A stretch of 64,000 nucleotides of DNA, from contig NC_026661.2 of the NCBI RefSeq assembly GCF_000004075.3, positions 20,798,307 through 20,862,306 of the forward strand, read 5' to 3'. Positions 16,858 through 58,295 of the stretch are shown piece by piece. The first letter of the stretch is position 1; each line of letters begins with the position of its first letter. Source of the stretch: Cucumis sativus (Eukaryota > Streptophyta > Magnoliopsida > Cucurbitales > Cucurbitaceae). A program made the translations under genes and the position numbers. The notes under the pieces were generated by a model. The model did not search any database. It was not told where the DNA came from and worked only from the letters and a program-made list of their open reading frames with translations.

Positions 16858-16864
16858 TTAAATA
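16858..16864 (-). promoter_or_regulatory. TATA-like box of the 16741 gene
   Basis: TATTTAA on the minus strand in the same GCACACCTATTTAAGTG context as in the left arm. Confidence 0.55.
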
Positions 16865-31889: not shown

Positions 31890-32720
31890 ATGAAATCAAT
31901 TGTAATTTGTTTGATTGTTCTTAGCTTATTTGGTGGAGGATCCACAGCCACATTGAAAGATTCCCCTATGGATACCAACCATGTGGTTGATGCTCGTAAA
32001 TTTTGCAGACTTGGTTGTTCCCTTTCTCTCTGCACCAATCTTTCCACACCAGAAAACTTGAGTGAGCTAATTTCTAGTACTCTTGTAGTATGTCTATTTT
32101 AATCTTGTAACTCTTTTGGGCTTCTGACATCTCAATCTAAATGCTAGTATGAGTGACATCCTTTGGTGTGGTTCTTTTCTTCTATGGGCTTCTATAATAT
32201 TGTTCCTTTCACATGGCTTTTTTGATTATATTTATGAATGTCACATTCTAATTGAGTTATTCGGATCCACCTATTGAGTCACATTTTCTTTTCTTTTTAA
32301 CAAAAAAACAATGAAGTTTTAGGTCGATTGGTGATTCAATGTTTCTTTTTATATTTTAAGCACTAGTACTAATGTTGGCAAACATTTTCGCAATGAAAAT
32401 AATTTCGTTGAGGAAGACATTGTTTGCTGGCATGCATGGAGCAGAAAATGTCATTAGAGGTTATATATCTTACTCATGACTAACATTCAATTAGAGTAGT
32501 ATTCATATACAAAATTTTCATCTCGAACTCACAATCAATGAGAGATTAGTAGCAATGTTAGTATATACGAAAATCTGGTCCCTTTCTTTAATCATTTTCT
32601 CTAGTTTTGATGGATGATTATCTTTTTTAAATTGTTTTATTTTCCTTTACTAAATTGGCAGATATTGAGAAAGTAGACAGTTGTTTTAAGGGATGTGATC
32701 AAACGTGCATGAAGTACTGA
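31890..32720 (+). CDS. Half-length thionin-like secreted protein (block A)
   Basis: Exons 31890-32061 and 32662-32720 (donor GTGAGC, acceptor AATTGGCAG, phase 1) encode 76 residues. The signal peptide (about 1-20, ending GGGSTA) matches the 57554 protein's. The mature part then goes directly to the segment SPMDTNHV and keeps only the third and fourth cysteine triplets, CRLGCSLSLC and CFKGCDQTC, so it has six cysteines where its relatives have twelve. The frame is open and the splice sites are intact, so it may be a real short form. AATAAA at 32802-32807 sits in a 3' UTR conserved with 39371 and 57554. The predicted protein is identical to that of 43136. Confidence 0.75.
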
Positions 32721-33185
32721 TGCTAAAGAACAAAAGATGAAGTGTCCTGAGAGGAGAAAAGGAACAAGGATTGGCTTTTCAAGATATACCTATCATATAT
32801 GAATAAACAAAATTCAATGGTGAAAATTAAAACCATTGGCTTAAAAGCATATTATTTCATATTTAAGCATATGTTTTGTTTCGATATAAATGTAGTTTCA
32901 AGTTTTTGCATGTAGTTGATTATGAGCAATATGTCAAAAACATCAATGTTTCTCCTTTTAAGCAATACGAGAATGAAGAGTTATGTCACAATTTTTGCCT
33001 TAGTATAGATTATGTGTGTGCATTTGTGGTGGAATGGGTGATTAAGGGTTGAATAATCTCACAAACAAATTTTATTTCAAATATTTCTAAGGCACCAAAT
33101 TATCTTTTCGATGGTTTTGTTGAACTTATCTCGGTCCACATGCACCTTATAATTATTGAACTAAAATTTATCAATACAATCATAA

Positions 33186-33533
33186 TCATTATATATATAT
33201 ATATATATATTTTTTTTTTTGGACAACTAAGGTTACACCTAATCTTATGCCTCCCATATTTTAACCTAATATTATTATATTTGACTTTTTATAACAGATT
33301 TATATAATAAAATATTTTTACTTGCATTTTCTATAATGTCGCAAAAGCACTGGTTTTTTTATAAAAAAGGAATTGTATTATTTTTAGTGACGCAATGCAA
33401 TTTGTCGCAAAAGATATTTGTAACGGTTTAAAATTAAATTTTAGCAACAACATTATTTATCATTGAAACATCATCTTTAGTAGCGAGTGGAATAGTCACT
33501 ATAAACGATCAATAATCACATAACATATAATCA

Positions 33534-33565
<32 letters not shown>

Positions 33566-35894
33566 TTATTTATTGGGACTATTAAGGTTGCACACCTTAC
33601 CTTAATCTTATGCCTCCCATTTTTTATAACTTTGAATATTTAGTGATGTGTCCTATCTAATCTTATAACCTAAAACAAAGCAGAAGCTGCAAGAAGCTGC
33701 AAGATGTAATGTGTTATCGGTAACTGCCGTAAGGTGGCTGCTGAGGGGCATAACTACCAGCACCCATCATCGGGTTGTATACGTCGGGCAGGGGTTGCTG
33801 CATATAGAATCCTTGTTGCCCCCATATCCACATTCGTTCCAATGCCACCCGTACCTTCATAGCCTCTCATCCCCATCCCCATCCCCATGCCCATGCCAGA
33901 ATTGGGGTTCATGCCCATTCCCATGCCCGAACCGGATCCTGACATTGCATTTGGAGGTGGCCTTAGCGCACTCCCTATTCCAGAAACCAGATCCCATAGC
34001 TTTAACCATGTTAATGATAGACACGATTGGAGCTGTACTAGGCTTCTCCATCCTCTTCTCCTTCCTATTGAGGGCTTCATTAATCAACACCAATGTATGC
34101 CAATGGGTTTGGTTTAGGTCCAGATATGTTTAAATTAGAAAAAATAGAATAAAACTTATGCCTCCCATTTTTTATACCTAATAAACAAAAATATATTTCA
34201 TAATCAATTTTTTAACGATGAATTGTTTGAATGTAACACCCAAGTTTTATTCAAAAAAAAAAAATTCCATTAAAAGACTTGTTTATAGAAAAGTTTTGAA
34301 ATTCTAAAAATAGTTATGGGGAAAACATCCACTTCCTACCCAAAATAAATAAGAAGAAAATATTATTTTTTAATAGAAAAAAGAAAAGATCATTTAGGGA
34401 CACATGCTATATATACATATGTGCCAGTTGCTATGGAGGCTTGTGCTACCACACCCTTCATTCCCATTAATGTGTGTGGTGCTTAATTAGGTGAGAATGT
34501 GTCTTTCAGTTCATCATATAATTCTCCTTATATATGGATTATTCCAACCATTTTTGTAAATATTATTCCTATAAATTATATTTATTTTTTTTTAGTTTGT
34601 GCCGTTTGGTACAATTTTTCATATTCTTAATCGCGTCCAAACGCATCCGTCCACTTCTATGTTTCACCTGTTTTTTTAATTGCTTTATACAATTGTCCCT
34701 TTTTCCTTTTAATCACCCAACAATTTTCTCTTTTTTCTTTTCATCACCCAACCATCTATAGTTGGATAACGATTTAGGGATGAATTCATGTAGCATTATT
34801 TTTTAATTTGTTGATTTGTTGATGGCAGTGAATTTCACAACAATTTTTTAAACCACTTTTATTGGTGTATCAATTGCTTGCACTAAAGGTGGGAGATTGG
34901 TTTGTTTCCAAATCAAATTCTTTTTTACTTTCTCAATGATAGATAATAGAAATGTGTGTGATTTAAGAAACACTTCTATTTTTTTTTTAAAGGTAAGCGT
35001 GTTTAGACGTTTATCGTAATCTCTAACTTGTTTGATTATTTATAAAAGAAAAGGAAAATTTAATCAAAATAGTTAAAACTTTAGGTATTAGTGATAGGTA
35101 GAGCTTGCAACCTTCAAACTTTAAGATTTTTTTTTCAGTAGAACCTATTTTAATGTAAAGAACTATTTTCGAAAGGAAACTTGCAACAATTATTTTTAAA
35201 AATATATAGAAAAAAAAGTTATTAAAGTCAAAATTCTAAACATATTTATTTTATAAAAAGATTAAAAACAACTATAAATTCAACCACTTGCCATGTGTGA
35301 TGTTTTTAATTTTTAGCTAATTATATAGATTGAACGATCATGCATTCTTGAAAACAAATACGCTGTTTTACTTTTTTGTTTTAAAGCTAAACTATAATTT
35401 AAAGGGAGAAGAGAAAATATTTTATTTATTTATTTAGTTATATGAAAATTTCAATTAATTTGTTTGGTAGAAGAAGAAATAGGAACAAATTATTTGGTAT
35501 ATATAAAAAATCATGACATATATTCTCTTGGTACAATATTTTTTATATTTTTCCACAATATATCTAAAAGTTTTAACGCTATATTTGCAAAAAAAAAACA
35601 AAGGTACGTACTTAAGGTATGTTTGAATTGAATTAAGAAAAAAATATTTTTCCAATAATACATTTTCTTTTAAACTTTTTTTAAAAAAATGAATTTAAAA
35701 TTTAAACACTTAATGTTTGGTTAGTGTTTATATGTGAATTTTGGTTTTAAATATTTCTCCAAAATAGATTATTTTATAAATATTTTTTAAAAAAATCCTT
35801 TATTTTAATTTGTCAAACACTACCATTTTCTTCAAAATAGTTTTTTCTTTTTTTTTTTTACAAAACTAAACACTTTATAATCTAAACCAAACAC
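33186..35894. other. Repeat-rich intergenic region
   Basis: AT microsatellites occur at about 33191-33210 and 33535-33560, each followed by the phrase GGAC.A.TAAGGTT.CAC and CTTATGCCTCCCAT. The phrase recurs at 34157, 44735 and 51567, so it is a dispersed repeat. A stretch at about 33330-33480 has GTCGCAAAAG-type phrases like those of CACTA elements. TGTAACACCC near 34233 could be the start of a gypsy LTR whose end I cannot place. A host-gene fragment (33708-34115) is listed separately. Nothing is seen at 34800-35890. Confidence 0.5.
33708..34115 (-). pseudogene. 3' fragment of an unidentified Gly/Met-rich host gene
   Basis: Reading the minus strand, NEALNRKEKRMEKPSTAPIV leads to a Gly-Met repeat (GMGMGMNPNSGMGMGMGMGM) and a C-terminus YNPMMGAGSYAPQQPPYGSY followed by an arginine and a stop. 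The pieces lie in different frames, so at least two frameshifts have occurred. The codon-like quality and GC content are far above the surroundings, which points to a captured or retroposed copy of a real gene's last exon(s). I do not recognise the parent protein. Confidence 0.6.
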
Positions 35895-36960
35895 CACACT
35901 CTTAGTCTACCAACTTTTTTTTCGTAAAAACTCAAAAGTGATTTTCAAAAGTTTTTTTTTCTTCTTTTCACTGATTTAACTTTTCCATGCAAATATCTTC
36001 GAGAGAAAAAATATATTTATATTTTAAACGTTTCATTTTACAAATATGTTGGAGAAAAGTTATTTTTCTAATAAAGTGAAAAATACTCTAAAGTGCTTCG
36101 GTGAGAAAGTAGTAATTATAATATAGAGTGAATTTGAGTTGATTGTTTAATTTAAATACTTTTAAAGGTGTAAAATCAAATCGATTGATTTTAAGCATTT
36201 GAATTAAGTTCTTTTCTCTCTATATACAATAATTAATGGAAAATAGTTCTTATATGGATTTCATGTTTACAACTCTTTAAGGCTATGGTACCTAAAATTG
36301 GAGTGGATAATAATTTTGTTTTTTATTAAAAGGTTTAAAAATAAAGATAATGCTTATAAACATTACTTCTTCCTTGACTCGTAAATTCTATATTTTGTTA
36401 TTAACTTTTTACTAATGTTTAAAATATTTAAAAAACGAGTATAAAAATAGTAGTTTGTTTTTAATAATATTTTTGGATTTTATAGTTTGACTAGAAATTT
36501 TGAATTGTTTTTTTTTTTTTTCAAAAACGATGAAACCTATAATTAAAAGTTGGTATGAAACCACCATTAATTTCAAAAACATAAGATGGAAACCATTATA
36601 AAGTGAAGTAATTAAGTATATAGTGAGTTGTTAGATGAAAAAAAGGTAACTATAATTTAAAAGGAAAACTAAAGAAAGAAAAAGGAAAAGTAAATGGTAA
36701 AGGATATGTTTAATTATGCCATTCTCCATACTAAACCTTAAGAAAAGAAAAGAAAAACGAGAATCATCTCACATGTAATAATATAACTAAGCATCATGAT
36801 ATACTTATAGTTTCCATGGAACAAATATAGCGAAGAAGATGGAAAATTAGAAAAAATCTAAATTAAAAAGAAAAAAAGTAATTATTCAACGAGATCGTCA
36901 TAATATATAACAATTCTTTTAACTATAAATGAATAAAGATTAAAAAAATTTGTTCCCATA
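35895..36960. repeat. Duplicated non-coding segment, copy 1
   Basis: It matches 40810-41945 over about 1.1 kb (CTTAGTCTACC.AC, AACTTTTCCATGCA, GAGAAAGTAGTAATTATAAT, TAAAGATAATGCTTATAAAC, AACTAAGCATCATGATATAC) with clear divergence and small indels. No coding potential. It is part of the ancestral thionin-like repeat unit, since both copies lie upstream of family genes. Confidence 0.85.
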
Positions 36961-38899
36961 ATTTTCTAATAATCAATAGATACAAATTCGAGATACTTTT
37001 GTTGTTTCTCCCTCGAACAATTTAACGGATGAAAAGAACTAGAAAATATAAAAGAAGAAAGTTGGGTGGTAGGTTTAGTTTTGATTTTGGAGTGATAGAG
37101 ATATTGTCGAGGGGTGAAATCTAAATAATATTTATGGTATAATTGTCTAAATGAAATGGATTTGTGAGAAAAACTAAAATTAGACATTGGTGACCTTACG
37201 ATATGGGTCGGGAGACAACCCGGGATATGAATTTCCTCTCTTCTTTGTTTCACTCTTCTAATTCTATTGTCCAACTCCAAGGAATCACATGCTTGGTTCC
37301 TAACAAACATCTCTCTCTTTCTCTCTTCTCCCTTCTTTTTGCTTAATATAACCATATACTTGATCGTTAATGGCACAGTTAGCCTTTGGTGTTCCAAAAT
37401 TAACGATCGGATAAAGCAACAAAGAGTAAACTCAAGAGAAATCGATATAGAGATTTATTTACTTCACTAATAGTGTGTTTAACTACGTCCTTTTGCAAAT
37501 AGAAAAATCATATTTTATTAAGTTTAACATTGTGTTAACAATGGGTTAGTTGGTCATCTTTCTAAACCCTAAAGTAAAAAACACAAATAACATAAATATG
37601 AAATAAAACTACGTTTAAGGCACTGACGTACAAATGCTTAGTGGTTTGAAGCACTAGATAACAAATTTAAGACCACCTCAAAATTAATTTAGAATAATTT
37701 TTAATTTTATTTTATGTTTGAGTTGTTTATTTATTTATTTATTTATTGTGTTATTTTATTTGAAATTAGTTAAATGTATGTATGTAATATGTATATTTAT
37801 TTAAGATTATGGTTTTTGGTGGAAATAGTATCGGTTATGTATATATATTTGATGGTGAAAAGAAAAGATTATCGTTGGAAGATAATTAATGGGGGAAGGG
37901 TTGATGTGATGGGTGGTGATGAGATAACAAAAGTCGAACCTCTCGTTTGGATGGTGAAAGTATAACCACTATGTTAATTGAGTTATGTTCGTGTTGACAT
38001 GTTGACATTTTATCACTAAGTTATGTTCATGTTGGCATTTTTATTAAAAAAATAAATTTAAAAGCTAAAGAGTTCAAATAGATATGGTTTTTTAACTTTC
38101 AATATATTAGTGTCGTCTCTTTTTTACTTTCTTTAATCTAAATTCAGTATTGCGTAATTTATTAGACACAACATTTGAAAGTTTAATAAAATAATAAAAT
38201 ATATAATTATATCGGCTTCATCAACATAAAATACGTTATAAACACTAACACAACCGTTTAAAAAGAAAAAGTATGTAAAACTACTGTTAACAAAAAGCAA
38301 AATTTGCAAAATTTTCTAGTACTCATTTGATTAAAACTATATTATAGCTAGGATATAATCTTAGATTTCAAATTTCAACAAAGAAGTGAAACTAAGATAC
38401 AAGTAATTTTTTGGACAATATATACTTAACAACATTTTGTCAAAATTCATTGTTAAGCTAAGGTAAAGCTTACTCAACGATAAAGATGCACTCTAGCTAA
38501 CCCAAAATAAGTTAATTTAAAATTAAAAAGTGTATATATGTGCAAGGTACAGGGTAATACACTAGGTGAGATTAAATAGGAGTTGTAATACACTAGGTGA
38601 GATTAAATAGGAGTACTCCTCTTCTTGATTTTTCATCAAATAACATGTTTTATTCACTATTTTATGAAAACTATTTATGTGAATCACATAATATGTCAAT
38701 TTCTCGACATAAAAAAGAGAGGTTAAATTACTATATCTTATTAATTTGTACTATCCAATTTTCCGCATCATTTTTTTAATTAATTAAAGGTCTATCTCGA
38801 ACCGTAAAAATAATAAGTATATGATAGTTAAATCAAGTGATTATCTTCTTTAAAAAGTGATTGTGATACTTAGATAGAAGGGTGTTTTATATTTTAATA
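36961..38899. other. Intergenic region with one long open frame
   Basis: A 143-codon minus-strand frame (36966-37397) starts MEHQRLTVPL and has no recognisable domain, signal peptide or splice support. I do not call it a gene, though it is long for such AT-rich DNA. A 40-base direct duplication (AATACACTAGGTGAGATTAA) occurs at about 38552-38608. From about 38695 the sequence is duplicated at 41950. Confidence 0.45.
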
Positions 38900-39141
38900 T
38901 AAGGTTAGTTGCAAAATATAACAATTAGATTTAAAATAATTAAACATATAACATTTATAAAAAAATTGCAAATATAGCAAAATCTGTCATTATAAGTTAT
39001 GTTACAAATATTGGTATATGATTGATAAACCATAAGAATGTATCAGTAATAATCTATCACAGATGAACTTTTCTATATTTGCAATTTTTAAAAAATGTTG
39101 TTGTATGCCTAATTATTATTATTCCTAAAATTACTATCCCT
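38900..39141. mobile_element. MITE copy upstream of the 39371 gene
   Basis: It has the family's hallmarks: GCAAAATATAACAATTAGAT near the left end, AATCTGTCA, TTACAAATATTGGTATATGA, and CTAATTATTATTATTCCTAA near the right end, with imperfect inverted ends. It lies about 230 bp before the start codon, next to the promoter. Confidence 0.6.
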
Positions 39142-39370
39142 TATAATTTCGATTACATTAACTTATAAATTGGTTTCTAACTCCACACAGAAAATGTGGG
39201 CTGTTAAAGTTCTTACAGGAAAAATGGGACCTACTGTTAGAAAAAATAATACTAATTATACAAACCATAACTAACGAACACCTTTATTGAATTTTGCTTG
39301 CTTATATAATAACTTCCTACCCACGACCCAAAACCACACAAGGATAACTCACATCCAAATTTGAGCAAAA

Positions 39371-39960
39371 ATGAGGTCAGTTGTTCTCATTTGCTTCATT
39401 TTGAGCTTAGTTGCCGGAAAATCCACAGCTGTAATAGAGGTGTCGAAGTGCTATCTCAACTGCATGGCAGTGTGTGCTGTCCCATCAAGCCTTCTCACGG
39501 TAGGCCTTTGTGCTTTAAAATGCACAGCTGATTGCATTGCCATTGCTTCTTCCCCTATGAATTTGAACCGTGTGGACACTCGTTACTTTTGTAAACTTGG
39601 TTGTGCCACCTCTTGTTGCACCAAATCCAGCACCAAGAAAGACTTTGGTCAGTAACTTTCTAATACTTCCGTTACTACTTATTTTAATTATTATATATAT
39701 ATATATTCTGTCATTTAGATTTTCTGTCGATTGATTCTGTGACATAACACATTATTTTTCTCAAATTTCTAGAGTTAACCCTTGTCATGAGTGACAGTCA
39801 ATAAGACTGGTAGTATTTATATATTAAATTTTTATCTCATTATTTCTAGAGTTTTGATGGATGTTTCAATCATGTTGGATTATTTTTTATGAACTTGGCA
39901 GCCGAGAAGAAAGTAGAAAGCTGTGTGAACACGTGTGATCAAATATGCATGAAAGCTTAA
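39371..39960 (+). CDS. Thionin-like cysteine-rich secreted protein
   Basis: Exons 39371-39647 and 39902-39960 (donor GTCAGT, acceptor CTTGGCAG, phase 1) encode 111 residues. The signal peptide (about 1-20, ending GKSTA) is followed by CYLNCMAVC, eleven residues, CALKCTADC, a linker with SPMNLNRV, CKLGCATSCC and, from exon 2, CVNTCDQIC. Its third triplet carries an extra adjacent cysteine, giving 13 in the mature protein; an odd count would leave one free or allow dimerisation (inference). The leader phrase CTCACATCCAAATTTGAG is shared with 57554. A TATA-like TATATAATA lies near 39303 and AATAAA at 40007-40012. Confidence 0.85.
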
Positions 39961-40667
39961 GAAGCCAAAAAGATGAAAGGAGAAAGAGCTGGGATTGGCT
40001 TCAATGAATAAACAAAAATCAGTGGTTAAAAAAAAACCATTGGTTTAAAAGCCATATTCCAAATTTAAGCGCATATATATATATATAGTCTCAAGGTTGT
40101 TCACGTTATGCTTTACTCAATATGAAAAAAAATACGGTTGTAGTGCTTTTTCTATGATTATATGAGAAAATGAAGTGTTATGCTTTACTTTTACCAATGT
40201 CTATTCATTAATTACATATTTAAGTGTGTGTGTTTGAAGTGGTGTTGTAATTAAGAGATATATAATTAATAATCTCACAATCATATACTTTATTTATTCT
40301 ATTAAAATCCTACCAGAATTAATCTAACACAATATTAGAAAACCTAAAGAGAGGTCATCTTTGATCACATAGACTAAAAAAATATAGTCATTAGTTCCTA
40401 GAAAGACGGTGTTAATTTTTCTTCTATTGAAGTATTATACGAAACCTATTTGGGTTTGTCGTCAAGTAGTTGATATGTGCCTTTGTACCCCTACTTATCT
40501 ATATCTTCCCATTCATATATACATTTCTTCAAAAATTTAATAACTCATCCAAAAATTATTTATCCTAATTAATTTCATACTATTTTTTTGGTGTGAGAAT
40601 TTCCTCGTAATAATATATAATCCCTAAACCGTCAAAGTTATGATTAACAAACAAATATTAGGGTTTA

Positions 40668-40808
40668 GGATTTAACTTCTGCAACACTTCCACTATTTTC
40701 AGTCGGAGGTACCAAGCGAATTCCAGCAAAAGGATTTGAAGATGGGGCAGAAGCAGTAGAACCACGACGTACTTTGACAATTCTTCTTATGGCTAGCACC
40801 TCTTCACT
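40668..40808 (-). pseudogene. NUP50 (nuclear pore) gene fragment
   Basis: The minus strand encodes [20 protein letters not shown] and then [19 protein letters not shown] in one open frame of about 48 codons. This recalls the N-terminal region of plant NUP50 nucleoporins (ATRRIVKV..., [12 protein letters not shown]). There is no start codon and nothing of the Ran-binding domain nearby, so it is an isolated captured exon-sized piece. It sits precisely between the 3' flank of the 39371 unit and the duplicated segment starting at 40810. Confidence 0.7.
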
Positions 40809-40809
40809 A

Positions 40810-41945
40810 GTACTTAGTCTACCGACACTTTTTCACAAAAGCCCAAAAGTGATTTTTAATTTTTTTTTTCTGTTCAATTAATTAACTTTTCCATGCACAT
40901 ATCTTCAAGAAAATAAATATATTTATATTTTGAACGTTTCATTTTAGAAATATTTTGAGAGAGGTTTTTTTCTAATAAATAATGAAAAATACTCTAAAGC
41001 GCTTGGGTGAGAAAGTAGTAATTATAATATAAAGCAATATGTTTGAGAAAGTTTATTTTTCTAATAAATCAAAAATACTCCAAAGTGCTTCGGTGAGAAA
41101 GTGATAATTATAATATAAAGTGAATTTGAGTTGGTTGTTTAAATATTTTAAGGGTGTAAAATCAAAGTGGTCGATTTTAAGCATTTGGACTAAGTTATTT
41201 TCTTCTCTATATACAATAATCTGTGGAAGGTAGTTCTTATGAATTTCATGTTTGCAACTCTTTAAGGTTATGTTACCTAAAATTGGAGCTGATAATAATT
41301 TTATTTTTTTATTAAAAATTTTAAAAATAAAGATAATGCTTATAAACATTACTTATTACTTATTACTTCTTCCTTGAATTCCAAGTTCTATATTTTGTTA
41401 TTAACTTTGTACTGACGTTCAAAATATTTTTAAAAACGAGTATAAAAATAGTAGTTTGTTTTTAAAAATATTTGTTGGTTTTAATAATTTGACTAGAAAT
41501 TTTGAATTACTTTTTTCAAAAAAGATGAAACCTATAATTAAGAGTTAGTGCCAAACAACCATTGCTTTCAACAACATAAGATTGAAACAATTATAAAAAG
41601 ATCTAAGTGTATAATGAGTTGTTTGGTGAAAAAAAAGGTAACTATAATTTGAAAGGCAAAGTAAAGAAAGAAAAAGGAACGTAAATGGTAAAGGAGATAT
41701 TTAATTATAACGCCGTTCTCCATACTAAACCTTAAGAAAAGAAAAAAGAAAAACGACGTGTAATAATATAACTAAGCATCATGATATACTTATACTTTCG
41801 ATAGAACAAGTATAGAGAAGAAAATGGAAATCAGAAGAAACCTAAATTAAAAAGAAGAAAGGTAATTATTAAATGAAACTGTCCTAATATAACCATTCTT
41901 TTAAACGATAAATGAGTAAAGATTAAGAAGTTCGTATGCATACTT
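40810..41945. repeat. Duplicated non-coding segment, copy 2
   Basis: Counterpart of 35895-36960. It contains a local extra duplication near 41035-41110 (a second AAAATACTC.AAAG.GCTT.GGTGAGAAAGT). It is followed at 41950-42212 by a counterpart of 38695-38899, so the two halves of the ancestral unit are adjacent here but 1.7 kb apart in the first copy. Confidence 0.85.
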
Positions 41946-42212
41946 TTCTATGGAATAGTTTCTTGACGTGAAAAAGAGAGGTTAAATTAATATATCTTAT
42001 TAATTTGTACTATTCAATTTTTTGCATCATTTTGTTTTAATTAAAAGTCTATTTTGAACCGTAAAAATAATAAATATATGATGGTTAAATTAAGTTTTTT
42101 AAGATTTAAATATATTTAATGTTAAATCTATCTATTTTGGATGTGTGAAACAAGTGATTATCTTTTTTAAAAAGTGATTGATATACTTAAATAGAAGAAT
42201 GTCTTGTATTGT

Positions 42213-42482
42213 TGCAAAATATAGCAATTAGATCCAAAATAATTAAGTATATGACAACATTTTAACAAAATTGTAAATATAGTAAAATCTGTCAAAGTCT
42301 ATCAATGATAATAGTCTATCACTTATAAACTATGTTACAAATATTGGCCTATTACTGATAAACTCTAAAAGTCCATCAACAATAGAAATCTATCATAGAT
42401 AAATTTTGCTATATTTGTATTTTTTTAAAGAATGTTCCTATATACTGTACTTAATTATTATTCCTAAAATTTCTACTAATAA
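42213..42482. mobile_element. MITE copy at the left edge of block B
   Basis: Contains GCAAAATATAGCAATTAGAT, AATCTGTCAAAGTCTATCAA, TTACAAATATTGGCCTAT and CTTAATTATTATTCCTAAAA, with imperfect inverted ends. Its right end coincides with the start of block B homology at about 42484, so the duplication breakpoint lies at or in the MITE end. Confidence 0.65.
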
Positions 42483-43135
42483 AATGTCAGTTCATCTATT
42501 TATTTTATACTAATAAAATTCTTTATGTCGAATGATAACTCGGCTAATTAAGTGAAGGATCATGTTCTACTGAAAAATAAATAAATAAATAACTGCAACA
42601 TAGTTTATATCTAGGTTTAATAATTTATGCATATGGTAATATTTTGAAAAAAAAATACAAATATAACAAAGTATACTAATCCTCTTAATTGAAGTGGTCT
42701 AGGTATATGTGTGTTTATTTGTTATATATACAACTAAAAAAATCAGTTGAAAATGTCAAAGATAATTTGAGGGTATGTTTAATTAAGTAAATTTGTGTAA
42801 TGGCAACTTTGTAAACTACAAATGGATCTTCCACATTCGTAGGGCTTTAACGACTATTAAGCCATTAGAGGAAATTAAAATTTGTCAAAAACCATGAGGG
42901 GATCGAGGAAATCGTGGCAGTATGTCATCGTAAGTCGTTCGTTTTCCGATAATATCGTAATGAATACCGTTTCATCCTCAATCCGATTTGTAGGGCCGTG
43001 GTTTAAATTAAGAGTGCTTATTTTTTGCAATATATATACAGTGTGTGTGTGAGTTTTACTCAAACTTATTTTCTATAAAACAAGTGTTGAACTATATATA
43101 AATTTGAACAAAAAAAAATTGAAATTGAGAATAAA

Positions 43136-43900
43136 ATGAAATCAATTGTAATTTGTTTGATTGTTCTTAGCTTATTTGGTGGAGGATCCACAGCAACATT
43201 GAAAGATTCCCCTATGGATACCAACCATGTGGTTGATGCTCGTAAATTTTGCAGACTTGGTTGTTCCCTTTCTCTCTGCACCAATCTTTCCACACCAGAA
43301 AACTTGAGTGAGCTAATTTCTAGTACTCTTGTAGTATGTCTATTTTAATCTTGTAACTCTTTTGGGCTTCTATAATATTGTTCCTTTCACATGGCTTTTT
43401 TGATTATATTCATGAATGTCACATTCTAATTGAGTTATTCGGATCCACCTATTGAGTCACATTTTCTTTTCTTTTCAACAAAAAAACAATGAAGTTTTAG
43501 GTCGATTGGTGATTCGATGTTTCTTTTTATATTTTAAGCACTAGTACTAGTGTTGGCAAACATTTTCGCAATGAAAATAATTTCATTGAGGAAGACATTG
43601 TTTGCTGGCATGCATGGAGCAGAAAATGTCATTAGAGGTTATATATCTTACTCATGACTAACATTCAATTAGAGTAGTATTCATATACAAAATTTTCATC
43701 TCGAACTCACAATCAATGAGAGAATAGTAACATTATTAGTATATACTAAAATCTGGTCCCTTTCTTTAATCATTTTCTCTAGTTTTGATGGATGATTATC
43801 TTTTTTTTTAATTATTTTATTTTTCTTTATTAAATTGGCAGATATTGAGAAAGTAGACAGTTGTTTTAAGGGATGTGATCAAACGTGCATGAAGTACTGA
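43136..43900 (+). CDS. Half-length thionin-like secreted protein (block B)
   Basis: Exons 43136-43307 and 43842-43900 encode a 76-residue protein identical to the 31890 product. It has the signal peptide, then only cysteine triplets three and four. Splice sites, intron phase and 3' UTR are conserved. Two copies with the same predicted protein despite scattered non-coding differences are compatible with constraint, with gene conversion or simply with recency. The upstream region joins a different flank at 42484, about 650 bp before the start codon. Confidence 0.75.
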
Positions 43901-44698: not shown

Positions 44699-44710
44699 AT
44701 AATCATTGTA

Positions 44711-44731
44711 TATTATATATATATATATATA
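44711..44731. repeat. AT microsatellite
   Basis: Short AT run following the TRIM. The homologous run in block C (51503-51564) is about three times longer. Confidence 0.9.
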
Positions 44732-45678: not shown

Positions 45679-45689
45679 AAAGTCCTCTA

Positions 45690-48238: not shown

Positions 48239-48675
48239 AGTTGTGGAACAAAATGGCGAGAGCACTTGGAAATTTCTCAAACTTTGAAAACTTTATTACC
48301 ATATGTAGAACGATATCCAAGCTAAAGCAATTAAGTAGAAGAAATGTCATTAGAATCAACGTGATAGCTGACTTACTTTGGACTGTCTTTATAGAAAGAA
48401 ACAATAGCATTTTTAAGAAAAAATCAAAATCTATTGTTAACTTATGGGAAGATATATGTAACTTGATAAGAGTTTGGTCTAGGCGTCATTCATCTTGTAA
48501 CCAATATGATTCTACTACCATTTCTCTTAAGTTTAGAGCTTTGTTAGAATAGGTTGTTGCAGACTTTCCTCTAGCCTTTCAACCTTGTAACTTAACTGTT
48601 TGTTAATAGATAATGCTTCTGATTCTAGGATTATCCTAGTTTGGAGGGTACGGTTTCTTCCCTTAAAAAAAGTCA
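48239..48675 (+). mobile_element. LINE fragment, right part with 3' UTR
   Basis: An open frame (48208-48552) reads LWNKMARALGNFSNFENF, then VIADLLWTVFIERNNSIF and SIVNLWEDICNLIRVW. This is the same domain tail as the minus-strand LINE at 24306. A 3' UTR ending CTTCCCTTAAAAAAAG follows. It continues the LINE interrupted by the LTR at 46194. Confidence 0.75.
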
Positions 48676-49868
48676 TAATATTAGATCATAACTACATGAG
48701 CTAGCTTTTCATTTCATACATCAATTGAATAGTGAAAGAAAAGTAATTGTATAACATATAAAAATAGTTGAGATGCCTTGAATTTGTTACGCGGTGCTAC
48801 AAACAACCAAGTATCAATGCCCCGTTTGTATTCAGAAACCATTCTCTCTTACAACAATTTTTCTCTCTATCTCGTAAATTTAGCTAACACACTATTCGTA
48901 AACCACGTATATCTTTGTGTCGATTTTCCATACGTTTTTTGTAATTTTGTAGTTCGTCTTTGATTTCTTTAACAAAAATTGTGACATCTCTCCTTATCTT
49001 TTCAATGTGGGTGATTCTCAACTTACTCCAAAATATGTAGCCTATTAGAGTTCACGAGTCCTTGATCGAATATAAATATCTTTTTGTACTAATTGTTACA
49101 TCAACTTTCTCTATTTATACTAGTCGATCTAATATTGAATTAGTAATAATTTTGGAGAAATATGATGTGGGTGCAGTGATTCAAATCATAAACCCCATGA
49201 TCGCTTACACACGTCAAATGTCAGTTGAGCTATTTATTTTATACTAATAAAATTCTTTATGTCGAATGATAACTCGGCTAATTAGGTGAAGGATCATGTT
49301 CTACTGAAAAATAAATAAATAAATAACTGCAACATAGTTTATATCTAGGTTTAATAATTTATGCATATGGTAATATTTTGAAAAAAAAATACAAATATAA
49401 CAAAGTATACTAATCCTCTTAATTGAAGTGGTCTAGGTATATGTGTGTTTATTTGTTATATATACAACTAAAAAAATCAGTTGAAAATGTCAAAGATAAT
49501 TTGAGGGTATGTTTAATTAAGTAAATTTGTGTAATGGCAACTTTGTAAACTACAAATGGATCTTCCACATTCGTAGGGCTTTAACGCTATTAAGCCATTA
49601 GAGGAAATTAAAATTTGTCAAAAACCATGAGGGGATCAAGGAAATCGTGGCAGTGTGTCATCGCAAGTCGTTCGTTTTCCGATAATATCGTAATGAATAC
49701 CGTTTCATCCTCAATCCGATTTGTAGGGCCGTGGTTTAAATTAAGAGTGCTTATTTTTTGCAATATATATACAGTGTGTGTTGTGAGTTTTACTCAAACT
49801 TATTTTCTATAAAACAAGTGTTGAACTATATATAAATTTGAACAAAAAAAATTGAAATTGAGAATAAA

Positions 49869-50690
49869 ATGAAATCAATTGTAATTTGTTTGATTGTTCT
49901 TAGCTTATTTGGTGGAGGATCCACAGCACATTGAAAGATTCCCCTATGGATACCAACCATGTGGTTGATGCTCGTAAATTTTGCAGACTTGGTTGTTCCC
50001 TTTCTCTCTGCACCAATCTTTCCACACCAGAAAACTTGAGTGAGCTAATTTCTAGTACTCTTGTAGTATGTCTATTTTAATCTTGTAACTCTTTTGGGCT
50101 TCTGACATCTCAATCTAAATGCTAGTATGAGTGACATCCTTTGGTGTGTTCTTTTCTTCTATGGGCTTCTATAATATTGTTCCTTTCACATGGCTTTTTT
50201 GATTATATTATGAATGTCACATTCTAATTGAGTTATTCGGATCCACCTATTGAGTCACATTTTCTTTTCTTTTAACAAAAAAACAATGAAGTTTTAGGTC
50301 GATTGGTGATTCAATGTTTCTTTTTATATTTTAAGCACTAGTACTATGTTGGCAAACATTTTCGCAATGAAAATAATTTCGTTGAGGAAGACATTGTTTG
50401 CTGGCATGCATGGAGCAGAAATGTCATTAGAGGTTATATATCTTACTCATGACTAACATTCAATTAGAGTAGTATTCATATACAAAATTTTCATCTCGAA
50501 CTCACAATCAATGAGAGATAGTAACATTATTAGTATATACTAAAATCTGGTCCCTTTCTTTAATCATTTTCTCTAGTTTTGATGGATGATTATCTTTTTT
50601 AATTGTTTTATTTTCTTTATTAAATTGGCAGATATTGAGAAAGTAGACAGTTGTTTTAAGGGATGTGATCAAACGTGCATGAAGTACTGA
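49869..50690 (+). pseudogene. Broken half-length thionin-like locus (block C)
   Basis: The locus matches the two intact short genes at 31890 and 43136 in both exon regions, splice sites and 3' UTR, but its reading frame is broken (about one coding break). I treat it as a fossil as the sequence stands. Its non-coding parts carry many one-base gaps relative to the other two copies, so part of its condition could be an assembly effect. Confidence 0.8.
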
Positions 50691-51155
50691 TGCTAAAAAT
50701 AGAAGATGAAGTGTCCTGAGAGGAGAAAAGGAACAAGGATTGGCTTTTCAAGATATACCTATCATATATGAATAAACAAAATTCAATGGTGAAAATTAAA
50801 ACCATTGGCTTAAAAGCATATTATTTCATATTTAAGCATATGTTTTGTTTCGATATAAATGTAGTTTCAAGTTTTTGCATGTAGTTGATTATGAGCAATA
50901 TGTCAAAAACATCAATGTTTCTCCTTTTAAGCAATACGAGAATGAAGAGTTATGTCACAATTTTTGCCTTAGTATAGATTATGTGTGTGCATTTGTGGTG
51001 GAATGGGTGATTAAGGGTTGAATAATCTCACAAACAAATTTTATTTCAAATATTTCTAAGGCACCAAATTATCTTTTCGATGGTTTTGCTGAACTTAACT
51101 CGGTCCACATGCACCTTATAATTATTGAACTAAAATTTATCAATACAATCATAAT

Positions 51156-51488
51156 TGTTAATTTTGATAGTATGGGGTTTCATCTCAAAACCAATTGGCT
51201 ATCTGAGGAGTGACCAATCGACCTTATATGGAGTATGAGTCCCCTTGGTTTTTCTAACGTCTGACTCTCAACTTCTCTAACATGCTCCCTCAAGATGGTA
51301 CCTCTTTGGGTTCACCTATCTTGGACAGAATATCGTTTGAGTTTACTGGCCGCTAATACCATGTTAATTTTGATACTATGGGATTCCATCTCAAAACCAA
51401 TTGGCTATGTGAGGAGTGACCCATCTACCTTATATGGAATATGAGTCCCCTTGGTTTTTCAAATGTAGAACTCTTAACTTCTCCAACA
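51156..51488 (-). mobile_element. TRIM retrotransposon (block C copy)
   Basis: Second copy of the 44367 element at the homologous position, with the same ATAAT flanks (51151-51155 and 51489-51493). It arrived by block duplication and not by a separate insertion. The two copies are nearly identical. Confidence 0.88.
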
Positions 51489-51498
51489 ATAATCATTG

Positions 51499-51502
<4 letters not shown>

Positions 51503-51564
<62 letters not shown>
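51503..51564. repeat. Expanded AT microsatellite
   Basis: About 30 AT units in a nearly pure run; the homologous tract in block B has about ten. Confidence 0.95.
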
Positions 51565-51567
<3 letters not shown>

Positions 51568-51708
51568 GACAACTAAGGTTGCACGTAATCTTATATATGC
51601 CTCCCATTTTTTTAACATAATAAAAGAAGGATATTATAATTTATTTCAAAAAAAATAAATGATCACAATATAAACTTTTTATCTCTGAATTGTGTTGTGT
51701 GTGTCAAC

Positions 51709-51785
51709 TAGGTGGTTGAGATACCTTGGTGCGCCTAGTGGATCATACATTGTTGTATCTTCTTTCAAAAGAAAAAAAAAAAAAA
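51709..51785 (+). mobile_element. LINE 3' tail
   Basis: GTGTCAACTAGGTGGTTGAG, then TGGTGCGCCTAGTGG and a poly-A stretch ending near 51785 match the 3' UTR style of the LINEs in this window (compare the reverse complement of 24130-24190). A second, more diverged GTGTCAACTAAGT phrase lies at 51913. Block B keeps only the first 20-odd bases. Confidence 0.6.
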
Positions 51786-52138
51786 CTTACTTTTAATCTT
51801 CTCAAAATTTGATCAGAATTTTTATTTTTGGAAATTAGAAGATATATTTTTGGTCTCTTAGTTTTGGTTTAGTTTTAATTGGAACAAGGTCATAAACAAG
51901 GCGTTAGGGGTGTGTCAACTAAGTAGAAATATACGGGAGCACCTTCTTATCCCACGATTTCTAATACTTAATTAAAGAAAATTGGAAGTATAGTCTCTAT
52001 TTGGTTCCTAGGCTTCAAAATTGAGCTTGATTTCACTTTTAGGTCTTTCAATATTCATTGATTTTGTTGAATAATATACTAGAGTTTGCTTTATCCTATT
52101 GTGATCCATATCCATGCATGCATTTTATGTTGGATTTT

Positions 52139-54690
52139 TCTTCCACATAACCCAAATATCTCTCGACTCCCTCTTCTTCATCCTAAAGAAGTGGGAAGCT
52201 GGAGTACGATGGTGGAGATCGATTTTCGTGATTGTGTGTACTCTGCAAATCTCTCACAGAAGATAAATTCTTTATAACAAATTTCCTTCCAATTTTGGGT
52301 TCCACAAACCAAATCTCTCTCTCGGATGATAGAAAGGTCTCTAAAGTGGTGGTGCTCCAATAATTTGGTGTTTGACAGATCTAGAGTCATCAACGACGTA
52401 AGTGTTCTTTCCTCTTCTCTTCTTTAGATTTTTTAAGAAGCATGCTTAGCTTTCAGGTTATAAAAATTGATTTCAATAATTTGTCAATGTATTTGATATT
52501 TTTAAGATTTGAATTAAATTGCATAATTGTCTCTATTATATTGTCTGCTAGGTAGGGCTCTTATCCCCTTCAGGACTGACCCTAGCCCACCCAATGATGA
52601 GGCTAAACTAGAGATCCCTATTGTTTCGACATGTCATGACAAGTCAAATTGTGAGGAACACAATTTAACACAGGACTAAAAGAGACGCCTTGTAAGCCCT
52701 CATTCCACTCTCCTTTTATTTAATTTAATATTTTTTAAGTTGTAAAAAATAAGTCAAACCCGAGTTTTAAGTCCTCTAAAGGTTAAGCCATCGTGATAAG
52801 GAAATTGCAACAAAATTAGTTTAGAATAAGATTTGGAAATTTTATTAAAAGGATTTGAAAAGCATGAAAATAAGGGCAAAAGGTAAGTTAAATTTGAAGT
52901 GAGGGGTAGTTTGGTCATTTTCAATATTATTATTAGTTACTAAAAAAGGAAGGAAATGGAGTCTTCTTCTTCGTGAAAAACCGACAACCCCCCTTTTGGA
53001 AAATTTCCATATGCTGACTTCCTCCTCTTTTTGTCATCTCTCCCTATTCTCTCTATCGCTCTCTTCCACTCACCTCTCTCTCTTTCGTTGTCTACACGCC
53101 ACAATCGATAGGCTATGCACCTCTGTTGTTGATACCCATGAACACCACCACCCAGCCACTCTCGTTGTGTTGCTCGATTTGTCAAATGAGAAACGCCACC
53201 ACCCTGCCACACCACATGTCATCCATGCCAGATTTAGAAACGCAGCACCACCTTTGTTTGGTTTTGTCTAAGTCGCGTCGTCCTCAGTTGCTTCAATAAC
53301 AACTCACACTACTAGTGTGTGGGTTTTGAATAAATCTCAATTGCAACAATATATATTTCCTCTCACTCGAAGCTTGTTGTTTGTAGTTGGATCTTGAAGT
53401 TTTGGGTGAGAGTGACAAAATTGTCGACTTAATATGATTATCATTTTGGAGACAATACCAATTGGGGAGCTGAGAACATAATCACACAAGATGAAATTTA
53501 CTCATTCTCGACTTTAGGGTAAGTAGAGGAGCGATCCCTTAAATGGTATCTCTAGAGCTTGAACAAAGGGCCTTACTCTCTCTATGACACGAGAGGAATT
53601 TTTGTTTATTGGTTGGATCATAAACATGTTGTTCATTAGAGGAGCACCGATATTTAAGGACTAGAGGAAACCTAGGAGTAAAATGATCATTTGACCCAGC
53701 CGGTGTTACGAGCACTCGTGAAGGACTAACTTACTGTTATTGGTCTATATCCATGGACACAGAAATATATCTACAGTGAGAAGAGTTCAGCTGTGAGTCT
53801 ATAGTGGAGTGTACACAAAGTTGACAAATATTGATTAATTTGGTTAATGACTTTAGCCAATTAATCTCATATCGTTGTAGCTTCTGATCTGTAGGTCCAT
53901 TGGGTCCTATTCCTAGCTTGTAAAAAGCAATGAGATTTATTTATATTGGTTGTACGTAATTTGAAATGTTCAAGTTTACTTTGGGAATTAGTATAATGTA
54001 TGGTGATACATTATAATATAAAGTCTATATTTTAATCAAACTTTATTATATAAATTTAATTTTTGATATGATTCAAAATTAATTTCTAAGAGATAAAATA
54101 TTAGGATGAGTCCAAATAGTAATTTAATATGAATTGGATTCTTATTAAAATTATTGGCTATGAAAGAATTTATATTTGAATATGATTCAAATTTAATTTA
54201 ACTTCAATATAATATATTTAATTTAGTATTAATTAATCCGGGAATTAATTAATAGTTTTATTTTATTTTATTTTATTTAGTTAAATCAATTTAAGAGTAT
54301 AAGATATTTGAGAGATATTCATTAAATATGATTTAAATGAAATATTGATTAGCTATAATTTAATTAATTAGTTTATTTGAAATTTCTATTAATTTAATCT
54401 TTTTTAAATTAATTTAAAAAAGTTTAAATTAATAGAATCTTATGATTTTCTCGTATTCTCTTTAAGGAGAGGGAGTTATAAATATGCAGAAAAAAAAACA
54501 GTTTTTCTTAATTAAGCCAATATTTTTGTTTTTTGCAAAAATAGTTTGTCTCTAAACTTTTTTTTATCTCAATTGGTTCCCACAAACCAATTTCATCCCA
54601 TAGGATAGGAAGGTCTCCGATGGGTGGTGTCCTTTTAGAATTTTTGCAAATTCAGAGGCGTCAAACTACGTAAGTTTACATTCTCTGAAA
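52139..54690 (+). mobile_element. LTR retrotransposon remnants (mixed)
   Basis: This stretch holds no intact gene. The phrase CACAAACCAA.TTC/ATC..GGAT, GGAAGGTCTC and GT.CGTAAGT occurs twice (about 52305-52400 and 54578-54672), like paired leader regions of copia-type elements in cucurbits. A GTTATAAATATGC box lies near 54475. 52540-53350 looks like a different, gypsy-type LTR leader. Open frames at 52940-53271 are low-complexity Ser/His-rich and not accepted. Boundaries are uncertain. Confidence 0.4.
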
Positions 54691-54960
54691 GGGTCAGTGG
54701 TTATCACCAAACATTATTTTCATGACGATTGGAGTCGAATTATGGCTACACTGAAGAGACAAACTAAGATTGAGTTCTCCTACAAACTATTCCACGCAGA
54801 CAAAGCTCTCTTGACAATGGCTCCTGAACATGCTAAACTACTATATAGCAAACGGTATACAAATGGATGGACCACAGTAGGAAAACATTATGTTATATTT
54901 GATAGATGGAACTTTGATGTCCACGACTCACAAACCTTGATTTCAAGCTATGAAGGATAG
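54691..54960 (+). mobile_element. DUF4283-type fragment of a retroelement ORF
   Basis: An 87-codon open frame from 54697 reads HYFHDDWSRIMATLKRQTK, FHADKALLTMAPEHAKLLYS, GWTTVGKHYVIFDRWNFDVH and TLISSYEG. This follows the DUF4283 domain found in plant LINE ORF1-type proteins. It stops at the point where the WVRF/NLPLHLWNL motif would normally follow, so it is a fragment. Confidence 0.65.
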
Positions 54961-55061
54961 CGAGAGTGGTGCTAAGGACTTGTGTTTTGAGATATCCCTC
55001 ATTAATTATTTTGTAAGTGATATCTAGTTTGGTCATAAACTCTAATTGAAACTTTGGAATA

Positions 55062-55187
55062 GTCTGGATGAGTGTGTAGTGAGACACACTTGCTGTGATG
55101 TGGAGTTTAAAGATTGTATATGTATATATAGAAGTGAAATTTTCTTTCTTTTCAGGTTTCGCGCCCAATCCATATTTTAAGGGAGAT
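55062..55187. repeat. Direct repeat, copy 1
   Basis: GGAATAGTCTG.ATGAGTGTGT, GTGATGTGGAGT and GTATATATAGAAGTGAAA recur at 56011-56145. Here the LTR at 55188 begins straight after GGGAGAT, while the second copy runs on unbroken, so the LTR inserted into or beside this repeat. Confidence 0.8.
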
Positions 55188-55868
55188 TGTCACACCCAAA
55201 CCGTATTGTCACTAAAACACTGAAGTAGGGGGAATAGGATCTGAGTTGGTTACAACCTTGAAATTTTCTCATCGCAACTCTTATCCTCAACTCCTTTTAA
55301 ACTATCAACACTCAAAACGCAACAGAAATCGCATCGAACACCAAACACATTCAAAGACATTCCTAATGCGAAAAACTAACGCGATCAAGTCGGCCAAAAC
55401 TTACACTTTATTAATAACAGACGTTTAATTCAATACTATAGAGAAACAACTCTTAACCAAAAGTTACATTAAATAAACTCTTTAAACGCTTAGTAGCTTC
55501 CTCATCTTGCCGCAAATCTTTCAGCTTTCTTCATCCACTTAATATTCCTCACGATCTAACAAACTTTTATTTGCATAGAACTCTGATCGCAAATATAAAC
55601 TCCAAGGCTTCCTCGCAGACTTCTTCTCCACGAAACACTTGGTACTTCCCGCGAAGACCACCCAAAATGCCTAGTCCAACACTTTCAAAACTTTCACTTC
55701 TTAACTTACCCAAAGATTCTCTTTTTATCACATAACTTCTTTCACGATTATACTTAACCATAAAAGATTTTATCGCTTAGTCCTTTCCACGGATTTATTC
55801 AAACACCAACTTCTTAATACTTTGTCAAATTTACTTCTTATATCCAAATTAGAAATGGGTCTCACACA
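55188..55868. mobile_element. Solo LTR, Ty3/gypsy-like
   Basis: It starts TGTCACACCC and ends GGGTCTCACA, with inverted termini, and resembles the outline of the 23993-25821 LTR. No coding region. A 5-bp target duplication could not be confirmed. Confidence 0.5.
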
Positions 55869-57553
55869 AAACATGTTGAAAGGACTTGTGTTGGTTTGTG
55901 GGGAGAACTTTCACTCTAATAAACCTTTAAGAAAGTAAGAATGATGTCGTCATGTCGCAGGGGAATATCGGTGATCTGAATTCTGAATCCTGGGCCTGGG
56001 ACGTTACACTGGAATAGTCTGCATGAGTGTGTGTGGTGAGTCACACTTGTTGTGATGTGGAGTCTGAAGATTGAATATGTATATATAGAAGTGAAAATTT
56101 CTCCCTTTTCTAGTTTGACACCAAACCCATATTTTATGGGAGATGCTACCAAAATTTTTGTAGGATTTATAATACATATCATATTATCGTTAGTTGAAGT
56201 TGAAAATGATTGCTTTCAAAAAGTGTTTTCATGCTACGATCTAATCAAAATATGCTTTAACTCCACCATAATCAAAGTGACCTTTCTTTAAAGGTTAGAT
56301 GTTCGAGCCTAGTATGTATACTAATCTCTCTCATTGAAAAAGTCATGCAGTATGCTCTAGTTCACTTTAAGGTTGGGAAAAATAATAAGATTTAATTTTA
56401 TTTGTAGAAATTTTAAAATTGAAAGTTAAAAGAAGAAGCTTTGAATTGTTACACTTTTTTAAAATGGTGCAATCCGAAAATTTTCCAAATAATCACCCAA
56501 ACTTATTACCACTCTCATCTAAACACGCTTAAATGTGAAGTTTGGATGCATTAATGTTTGTACAACTGCAACCTTTGAATTGTTATACTTTTACAAATAT
56601 GAAAGCATAAAATTTCACTACACCTCCCTATCCCACTAAAAGAAAGGACCACCAGTTTCTAGAACTTTTATTATTATTCAATAGTTTTTAGGATTTTATT
56701 TATTATTATTCAATAAAAGTATGAGGTAGTTATAATTTTGGACAAATGATGCTAAAAATGTTTACATATTTTTTATTAATTTCGTTCGTGAAAATATCCA
56801 TGCACTATCAGAAGGTTATCTATGTTTAAATTGACTATCTTTACAATTTAGAAAAGAAATATAGTTACGTAAGTCCTATTACCATTAAAAAAAGAATACT
56901 ATTTTTGCAATGTTCCTTCCTAATATACTTTTATAAGCAATAAATAAATAAAATTGTAAACAGAAAACAACCAAAAACTTTCTTTCTTTCTTCTTTTTAT
57001 ATAAAATTTGGAAACATTATTCCATAATAAAATTTGTCACTGACTTTGAAATTAAGGAAGTCTACCTTAAACTGTTTTGGCAATTATGGAAGACCCATCT
57101 ATACAAATCTTCCAAATGTTATATTAAAAATGGTGGGTTTCTATCTGATGCATTGCCTAATGGGAGAGTTACAATTTTATATTCTCTCCCAATATTATAA
57201 ATTAAATATTAAATTATTTGGTGGATATATCAAGCTCCATTTTCTCTGATTTTATTCAACACTCTAAGCATGGCAATTGGAATTTTAAAATTGAAATTTA
57301 AGTGAAAATATGTCAAAGCTTAGTGGGAAGAACTATGAGATGACCATGCAATAACATTGTGACATGTGGATTTCCAATATAGCAAATAAGTGGTAGTAAA
57401 GAGGGTTGGTGATGTATTCACTAAAACCAAAAATAATCATTCTATTAAATTTTATATTAAAAATTATGCTTATTTAAGAAGCATTCTTCCCCACAACCTC
57501 AAAACCACACCAATTAAATTAAGTCTTAACTCACATCCAAATTTGAGAAAAAT
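55869..57553. other. Intergenic region with repeat remnants
   Basis: It contains the second direct-repeat copy (56011-56145). A faint tRNA-like B-box (GGTTAGATGTTCGAGCC near 56292) may come from a SINE. The rest to 57450 is AT-rich without a gene. The last 100 bases hold the 57554 promoter, with a TATTTAAG at 57473-57480. Confidence 0.45.
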
Positions 57554-58295
57554 ATGAAGTCAGTTGTTCTAATTTGTTTCATTTTGAGCTTAGTTGCAGG
57601 AAGATCCACAGCCTCATTTGGGAAGTGCTACGCCAAGTGCTTTATAGTGTGTGCTATCACACCAGGCATTCCCGTTGGCACTTGTGGGGCAAAATGCTTG
57701 GCTGATTGCCTTTTCATTGCTTCTTCCCCTATGGATTTGAATTATATGGACACTCATTACTTTTGTAAACTTGGTTGTGCCACTTCTCGTTGCACCAAAT
57801 TCAGCACCAAGAAAGACCCTGGTAAGAAACTTTCTAATACTTCCGTTACCACGTATTCTAGTTATACAAATGTTTATAGAGAGACATTTAGATTTTTCAT
57901 CGTTTGATTTTAAATGTTGTTGACCGTAAAAGTCACATTAATGTATGTAAATAATTTTCTATACTATTATATTCTATTAGGGAATTAATGTTTTCAACCC
58001 AAATCCTTATAATTTATGCTTTAAGCATTATGATGGTTGGCAAAAGGTCTCTCCCGATAAAAATTCATTAGAAGACCATTTTGCTGATCTCGAGCAAAAC
58101 GTCATAAAAGGTTATCTTGTTGTGAGTGACAGTCAATAAGATTGGTAGTATTTATATTAAATTTTTATCTCATTATTTTTAGAGTTTTGATGGATGTTTT
58201 TAATCATGTTGGATTTTCTTTTAATGAACTTGACAGCCGAAAAGAAAGTAGAAAGCTGTGTGAACACATGTGATCAAACATGCACAAAAGCTTAA
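57554..58295 (+). CDS. Thionin-like cysteine-rich secreted protein
   Basis: Exons 57554-57821 and 58237-58295 (donor GTAAGA, acceptor CTTGACAG, phase 1) encode 108 residues. The signal peptide (about 1-20, ending GRSTA) precedes CYAKCFIVC, ten residues, CGAKCLADC, a linker with SPMDLNYMDTHYF, CKLGCATSRC and, from exon 2, CVNTCDQTC. All twelve canonical cysteines are present. It is the closest full-length relative of the short genes at 31890 and 43136 and a sister of 39371, with which it shares leader and 3' UTR phrases (CTCACATCCAAATTTGAG; AATAAA at 58342-58347). Confidence 0.88.

Follow-up and report, generated by a model that had tools for sequence, protein, structure and literature searches.

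What remains of a gene for a secreted, cysteine-rich precursor once the part that encodes the peptide is gone, and why would such a gene be found again and again in one genome? The question is raised by a gene family in a 64,000-nucleotide stretch of the cucumber (Cucumis sativus) genome (C7:20798307-20862306, called the window here), which holds nine loci of the family: five that are full-length and open (12523, 16723 on the minus strand, 21872, 39371 and 57554), one relic interrupted by TGA, and three short ones. The full-length members carry four successive cysteine triplets, designated T1, T2, T3 and T4. We propose that they encode thionin-like preproproteins composed of a signal peptide, a fast-changing six-cysteine helical-hairpin peptide (T1+T2) and a six-cysteine prodomain (T3+T4), and that a single in-frame deletion in an ancestral gene would have removed the peptide module and joined the signal peptide to the prodomain. 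The prodomain-only gene would then have been copied, together with about 1 kilobase (kb) of flanking DNA per side, to several chromosomes, and its products would be secreted as small proteins in which T3 is bonded to T4.

All seven window genes that were spliced (57554, 39371, 21872, 12523, 16723, 31890 and 43136) consist of two exons separated by a phase-1 intron that lies between T3 and T4. The spliced protein of 57554 has 108 residues, and those of the short genes 31890 and 43136 have 76 each and are identical to one another. In 57554, 39371, 21872 and the 12523/16723 pair T1 has the form C-x3-C-x3-C and is followed after 10-11 residues by T2 (C-x3-C-x3-C), then by T3 (C-x3-C-x4-C) and T4 (C-x3-C-x3-C); an earlier reading of this DNA, made from the sequence only, had given the four triplets of the full-length members, their spacing, the coordinates and the lengths correctly. 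The gap between T3 and T4 is 17 residues in 12523 and 16 in the module otherwise. The mature part of the 39371 protein has 13 cysteines, the thirteenth adjoining T3; this extra cysteine would remain free or allow dimer formation. Three loci go by a second name in parts of the analysis (21872 = 21893, after the first matched codon; 12523 = 12529; 16723 = 16717).

The sequence-only reading had also claimed that 31890 and 43136 are intact, encode the same protein and lack everything between the signal peptide and the SPMD residues of 57554 while keeping T3+T4, and splicing of both genes together with DNA alignment bears this out. The alignment of 31890 with 57554 contains a single in-frame gap that runs from the signal-peptide codons to TTCCCCTATG; the distance from codon 21 to that point is 110 nucleotides in 57554 and 11 in 31890, a net loss of 33 codons that leaves the frame intact. 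The pentanucleotide TCATT stands at both the left and the right border of the deleted segment in 57554, so that slippage between short repeats may have caused the deletion; 39371 has no such left border. The third short copy in the window, 49869, is broken by a 1-nucleotide deletion at the end of the signal peptide. The blocks that carry the short genes of the window were duplicated recently, with 97.9-98.5% identity across 1004 and 892 aligned bases, and the fact that 31890 and 43136 encode the same protein therefore gives little support for selection; across the three copies there are substitutions in 0 of 230 coding columns and in 24 of 1630 noncoding columns (p = 0.063).

Comparison with known precursors argues that the module retained by the short genes is, with high probability, a homologue of the C-terminal acidic domain, or prodomain, of thionin precursors. 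The cysteine spacing of T3+T4 is 3,4,16,3,3, compared with 3,4,21,3,3 in the acidic domain of Arabidopsis Thi2.1 and 3,4,19,3,3 in that of a wheat thionin (sequences from a table in PMC10967526), and acidic domains are described in PMC8279376 as having the 'typical three and three cysteines'. A T3+T4 profile was built from seven sequences of the window and C5. The acidic domain of Thi2.1 scores 29.2 bits against it and the wheat one 21.0 bits, and these scores were reached by none of 5000 free shuffles of either sequence. When the cysteines were held fixed, 0 of 5000 shuffles reached the score for Thi2.1 and 8 of 5000 for wheat, which makes a chance likeness between six-cysteine sequences unlikely. 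(The 12523 sequence used for the profile, the isoelectric points and the Pfam scan is one splice-junction isoleucine short.) Since T3+T4 matches the acidic prodomain and the lost T1+T2 sits at the position of the mature peptide, the short genes very probably represent a prodomain without its peptide, that is, a signal peptide followed by T3+T4.

Several observations weigh against this identification. Besides the eight cysteine-fixed wheat shuffles, the retained module is not consistently acidic: the isoelectric point of T3+T4 is 8.2 in 57554 and 8.8, 8.3 and 4.8 in three other full-length genes, and the short mature proteins, at 6.4, 7.5 and 5.9, are not clearly acidic either. A basic C-terminal domain is also known among thionin precursors, according to PMC8279376, which further describes two introns in the acidic domain of thionin genes where one is seen here. 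Arabidopsis Thi2.4 is reported in PMC3749967 as found uncut at its C-terminal region. A Protein Data Bank (PDB) sequence search with the mature 31890 protein returned no convincing match.

The lost module, T1+T2, occupies the mature-peptide position of the precursor and changes faster than the module behind it. Between 57554 and 39371, T1+T2 without its loop shows nonsynonymous change at 18 of 58 sites and T3+T4 at 12 of 128 (rounded site counts; p = 0.0004), and PMC4695807 describes faster change in the peptide than in the C-terminal module as a known pattern of thionin precursors. The T1+T2 modules of 57554 and 21872 are predicted to fold as helical hairpins. The 21872 module aligns to the olive pollen allergen Ole e 6 (1SS3) with E = 0.0083 in a PDB sequence search, while 1SS3 was absent from the matches of the 57554 protein, of a four-sequence T1+T2 profile and of the 12523 module, which gave no other convincing match. 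Foldseek returned no match with E up to 0.001 for either T1+T2 model; the nearest small solved structures include Luffin P1 and VBP-8 and Nigellin-1.1, the latter two of which we take to be alpha-hairpinins, and the fold scores are weak. The sequence-only reading had suggested that the full-length protein could form two equivalent hairpin modules and had put forward structure prediction as a check. The models, which cover the T1+T2 part alone, agree with a helical hairpin there, but the halves are not equivalent, the one that is kept in the short genes being the one that matches a thionin-type acidic prodomain. Nor is the triplet hairpin, in which that reading had seen an extended relative of the alpha-hairpinins, a novel extension, because Ole e 6 already carries two C-x3-C-x3-C triplets.

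The short form extends well beyond the window. Six-frame searches of the genome (226,625,048 bases in 88 contigs) were made with three full-length and two short exon-1 proteins as queries, and the locus counts that follow are minima because only the best candidates were scored. With the two short queries at least 17 loci of the short form were identified (C7 has three, C6 and C1 have a single one each, C5 has seven and C78 five), and T1+T2 is missing from all 17. Both exons are open in nine, five of which were spliced and translated. The number of independent short copies is smaller than 17 because several are duplicates that scarcely differ: C5 7926154 and 8679524 share 99.98% identity across 5.7 kb, and the short copies on C78, a 260-kb contig, repeat the C5 types. 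The three full-length queries identified no full-length member beyond the window cluster, although divergent members elsewhere may escape such searches, since the search with 57554 passed over the 12523/16723 pair. Weak matches of these searches outside the cluster, at C2:23656378 (E 0.53) and C4:16069091 (E 0.78), are unconvincing on score alone. A further candidate, C2:9873962 (E 0.998), was rejected after the three frames of its strand revealed no visible family motif.

The short copies appear to go back to one event. The deletion junction is common to all five short sequences that were aligned as DNA, one each from C7, C6, C1, C5 and C78, and in a tree of 10 DNA rows with midpoint root the short sequences are separated from the two full-length ones with support of 100/100. 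Homology between 31890 and C5 7926154 covers roughly positions -1100 to +1380 relative to the start codon and thus indicates that the short gene moved with its surroundings, while in the C6 and C1 copies it stops before or at exon 2. Two neighbouring cysteine-triplet stretches, which may be chance or another cysteine-rich relic, lie about 2.2 kb 3' of the start of the C6 short exon 1.

Whether the short genes are kept for a function or are decaying is a matter on which the evidence is mixed. Two lineages were compared, that of 31890 on C7 and that of 7926154 and 9359134 on C5. The 31890 protein differs from these at 28 and 30 of 75 residues, respectively, and all six cysteines are kept in both cases. 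No coding gap event separates the lineages where 3.9 and 3.6 would be expected (P 0.02 and 0.028), and of 20,000 neutral simulations only 0.33% and 0.47% retained both the frame and the six cysteines. Conservation is highest in the last 100 nucleotides before the ATG (88.8%, 89.9% and 86.5% of 89 aligned bases, 11 gapped), and the splice sites are retained in both lineages. The pattern of changes is consistent with a preserved cysteine scaffold under a changing surface.

The same data leave room for the alternative that the short genes are passengers, a single deletion allele carried in segmental duplications and decaying neutrally, some copies of which are open by chance. The simulations favour retention but count for less because the compared copies are all intact today. 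The ratio of nonsynonymous to synonymous change (Ka/Ks) between 31890 and three C5/C78 sequences is 0.72, 0.95 and 0.77, and in the mature part 0.81-1.16, none of these values differing from 1. Coding divergence, at 20.9% of sites, exceeds the 15.7% and 17.8% seen in the intron and flanks, and for the first pair the counts are 47 of 225 coding and 231 of 1473 noncoding differences (p = 0.053). Eight of the 17 short loci are broken or have no exon 2. These results all run counter to retention, and the homology that spans about 1 kb on either side of the gene and ends before or at exon 2 on C6 and C1 is likewise what passengers would leave. Against neutral decay stand the rarity of the observed retention in the simulations, the absence of coding indels, the conserved upstream stretch and the splice sites preserved in both lineages, and we regard the passenger explanation as possible though rather unlikely. 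On balance we lean, with modest confidence, toward the short proteins having been retained for some function, and we give similar, modest credence to the joint claim that they are prodomains and have been retained. The short genes would most likely make small secreted prodomains.

The sequence-only reading implied a different product: with two equal hairpin modules, the short form would be a six-cysteine defence peptide in its own right. The survival of six cysteines in two triplets through 28-30 changes in 75 residues would suit such a peptide, as would the helical hairpin predicted for T1+T2, and in one pair nonsynonymous change in the mature part (30 of 129 sites) exceeds the noncoding change given above (p = 0.034), as in diversifying defence peptides. 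The module that is retained, however, is the one that resembles the acidic prodomain, and the charge of the short mature protein is close to neutral. The function of the acidic domain is described as unclear and its cysteines as conserved, no such peptide having been isolated from plants according to PMC8279376 and PMC3677976, and the barley processing protease is reported to cut the domain several times (PMC8279376). We therefore consider an independent defence peptide unlikely. It is far less probable still that the short form is an artefact of assembly or annotation, or an alternative splice form of a full-length gene. The near-identical pair on C5 could be an assembly duplicate, and C78 repeats C5 copy types, but diverged copies on C7, C6, C1 and C5 carry the deletion in their genomic DNA. 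Exon skipping as the source was rejected because the deletion borders in 57554 and 39371 have no GT...AG.

If the short genes do produce free prodomains, these might act in trans, binding, escorting or masking full-length relatives or the protease that processes them, whether as escorts, as decoys or as inhibitors of that protease. The idea is prompted by the roles proposed for the acidic domain in PMC8279376, which are to guide and to neutralise its peptide; the cleavage by the barley protease and the lack of a clearly acidic charge in the short mature proteins call for caution, and we regard action in trans as doubtful. A natural family that would make the acidic domain without the peptide offers a direct test of the function of this domain. 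If the short proteins accumulate, it would become possible to purify the domain, map its disulfides and identify its partners; if the genes merely decay, they amount to an ordinary deletion allele spread by duplication.

Coordinates of family members in the window (window positions) and condition of short loci across the genome
Feature	Position	Strand	Remarks
Short gene A exon 1	31890..32061	+	Linker and T3 joined to signal peptide (codons 1-20); donor A|GTGAGC
Short gene A exon 2	32662..32720	+	T4 and stop
39371 full-length gene exon 1	39371..39647	+	T1, T2, T3; extra cysteine beside T3
39371 full-length gene exon 2	39902..39960	+	T4
Short gene B exon 1	43136..43307	+	Protein identical to gene A
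Short gene B exon 2	43842..43900	+	T4
Short gene C exon 1	49869..50039	+	1-nucleotide deletion at signal-peptide end, broken
Short gene C exon 2	50632..50690	+	T4 still readable
57554 full-length gene exon 1	57554..57821	+	Signal peptide, T1+T2 (predicted helical hairpin), linker, T3
57554 full-length gene exon 2	58237..58295	+	T4
Full-length paralogue 21872 exon 1	21872..22172	+	
Full-length paralogue 21872 exon 2	22559..22617	+	
Full-length paralogue 12523 exon 1	12523..12817	+	One inverted-duplication arm
Full-length paralogue 12523 exon 2	13103..13167	+	
Full-length paralogue 16723 exon 1	16429..16723	-	Other inverted-duplication arm
Full-length paralogue 16723 exon 2	16077..16141	-	
Relic with TGA after T2	19472..19741	-	Signal peptide and T1+T2 only
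Broken short loci	49869; C5 7931035, 8684405; C5 9387956		Frameshift; stop in exon 2 (both); 1-nucleotide deletion at exon 1 end
Broken short loci	C78 99230, 235639		Altered reading frame in exon 1
C6 and C1 short loci			No exon 2 detected within 3.5 kb; two cysteines also lost in C1

The window also records other rearrangements of the family and its surroundings. An inverted duplication at 11667-17581, whose arms are 98-100% complementary, carries the divergent full-length pair 12523/16723, and the predicted protein is identical between the two arms. The minus-strand relic at 19741-19472 mirrors the short genes in that its open frame comprises the signal peptide and T1+T2 only; an in-frame TGA follows immediately after the last T2 cysteine, and its exon-2 relic lacks the last T4 cysteine. 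The segment 59295-59572, which lies 1.7-2.0 kb 3' of the start codon of 57554, shares 72% identity with the DNA 355-634 nucleotides 5' of the start codon of 31890 and may be left over from an earlier tandem arrangement; repeats in register with a spacing of 181-182 nucleotides occupy 59579-60241. At 48253-48552, about 1.4-1.6 kb upstream of 49869, an open reading frame (ORF) fragment resembles by eye the end of a long interspersed nuclear element (LINE) reverse transcriptase and has no Pfam match; matching DNA also precedes the short copies on C6 and C1, at a distance of about 1-1.4 kb. Five other ORFs in the window had no Pfam match at E up to 0.01.

Pfam scans of five spliced proteins and an NCBIfam scan of two gave no family above cut-off; the five had no match to the thionin family PF00321 at E up to 10, and the best other family (E 0.038) was below cut-off and at chance level. 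A six-frame search of the whole genome gave no PF00321 match either, which is no proof of absence because 14 control genomes also gave none. The name THNL, used for the thionin-like protein family, is backed by no Pfam or NCBIfam match. We take the full-length genes to belong probably to the same family as tomato SlThi1-3 and Arabidopsis At1g12660/At1g12663. The tomato proteins are described in PMC8198727 as thionin-like precursors, one of which has a deletion in the conserved six-cysteine C-terminal domain, and its account of thionin-like proteins does not mention a prodomain-only member. Among the matches listed in the open-licence full-text literature there was likewise no report of prodomain-only thionin genes.

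Compared with the precursors of thionins (PR-13; PF00321 followed by the acidic domain), the cucumber genes share the order of signal peptide, cysteine-rich peptide and six-cysteine C-terminal domain with 3,4 and 3,3 spacing, as well as a peptide module that is more variable than the C-terminal one. They differ in having one intron rather than two, a C-terminal module that is not always acidic, and short members without the peptide module. The peptide module itself starts with C-x3-C-x3-C and does not have the double cysteine at positions 3/4 of the mature peptide that serves as the criterion for thionins (PMC8279376). The two C-x3-C-x3-C triplets of T1+T2 in all five open full-length genes are also present in Ole e 6, whose fold is two antiparallel helices (PMC8198727) and which has 9 residues between the triplets where the cucumber proteins have 10-11. 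The fold modelled for T1+T2 may be the helix-turn-helix of the alpha-hairpinins VBP-8, Nigellin-1.1 and Luffin P1, but the fold scores are weak. Luffin P1 is named an alpha-hairpinin in PMC4695807, which describes two C-x3-C pairs and two disulfides for this group, whereas the window modules have three cysteines per predicted helix. A parallel for the loss of a whole module exists in citrus thionin homologues, in which the peptide is kept and the acidic domain is lost (PMC4956653). Modular loss within a thionin family is common to both plants, and in the short genes of cucumber it is the opposite module that has gone.

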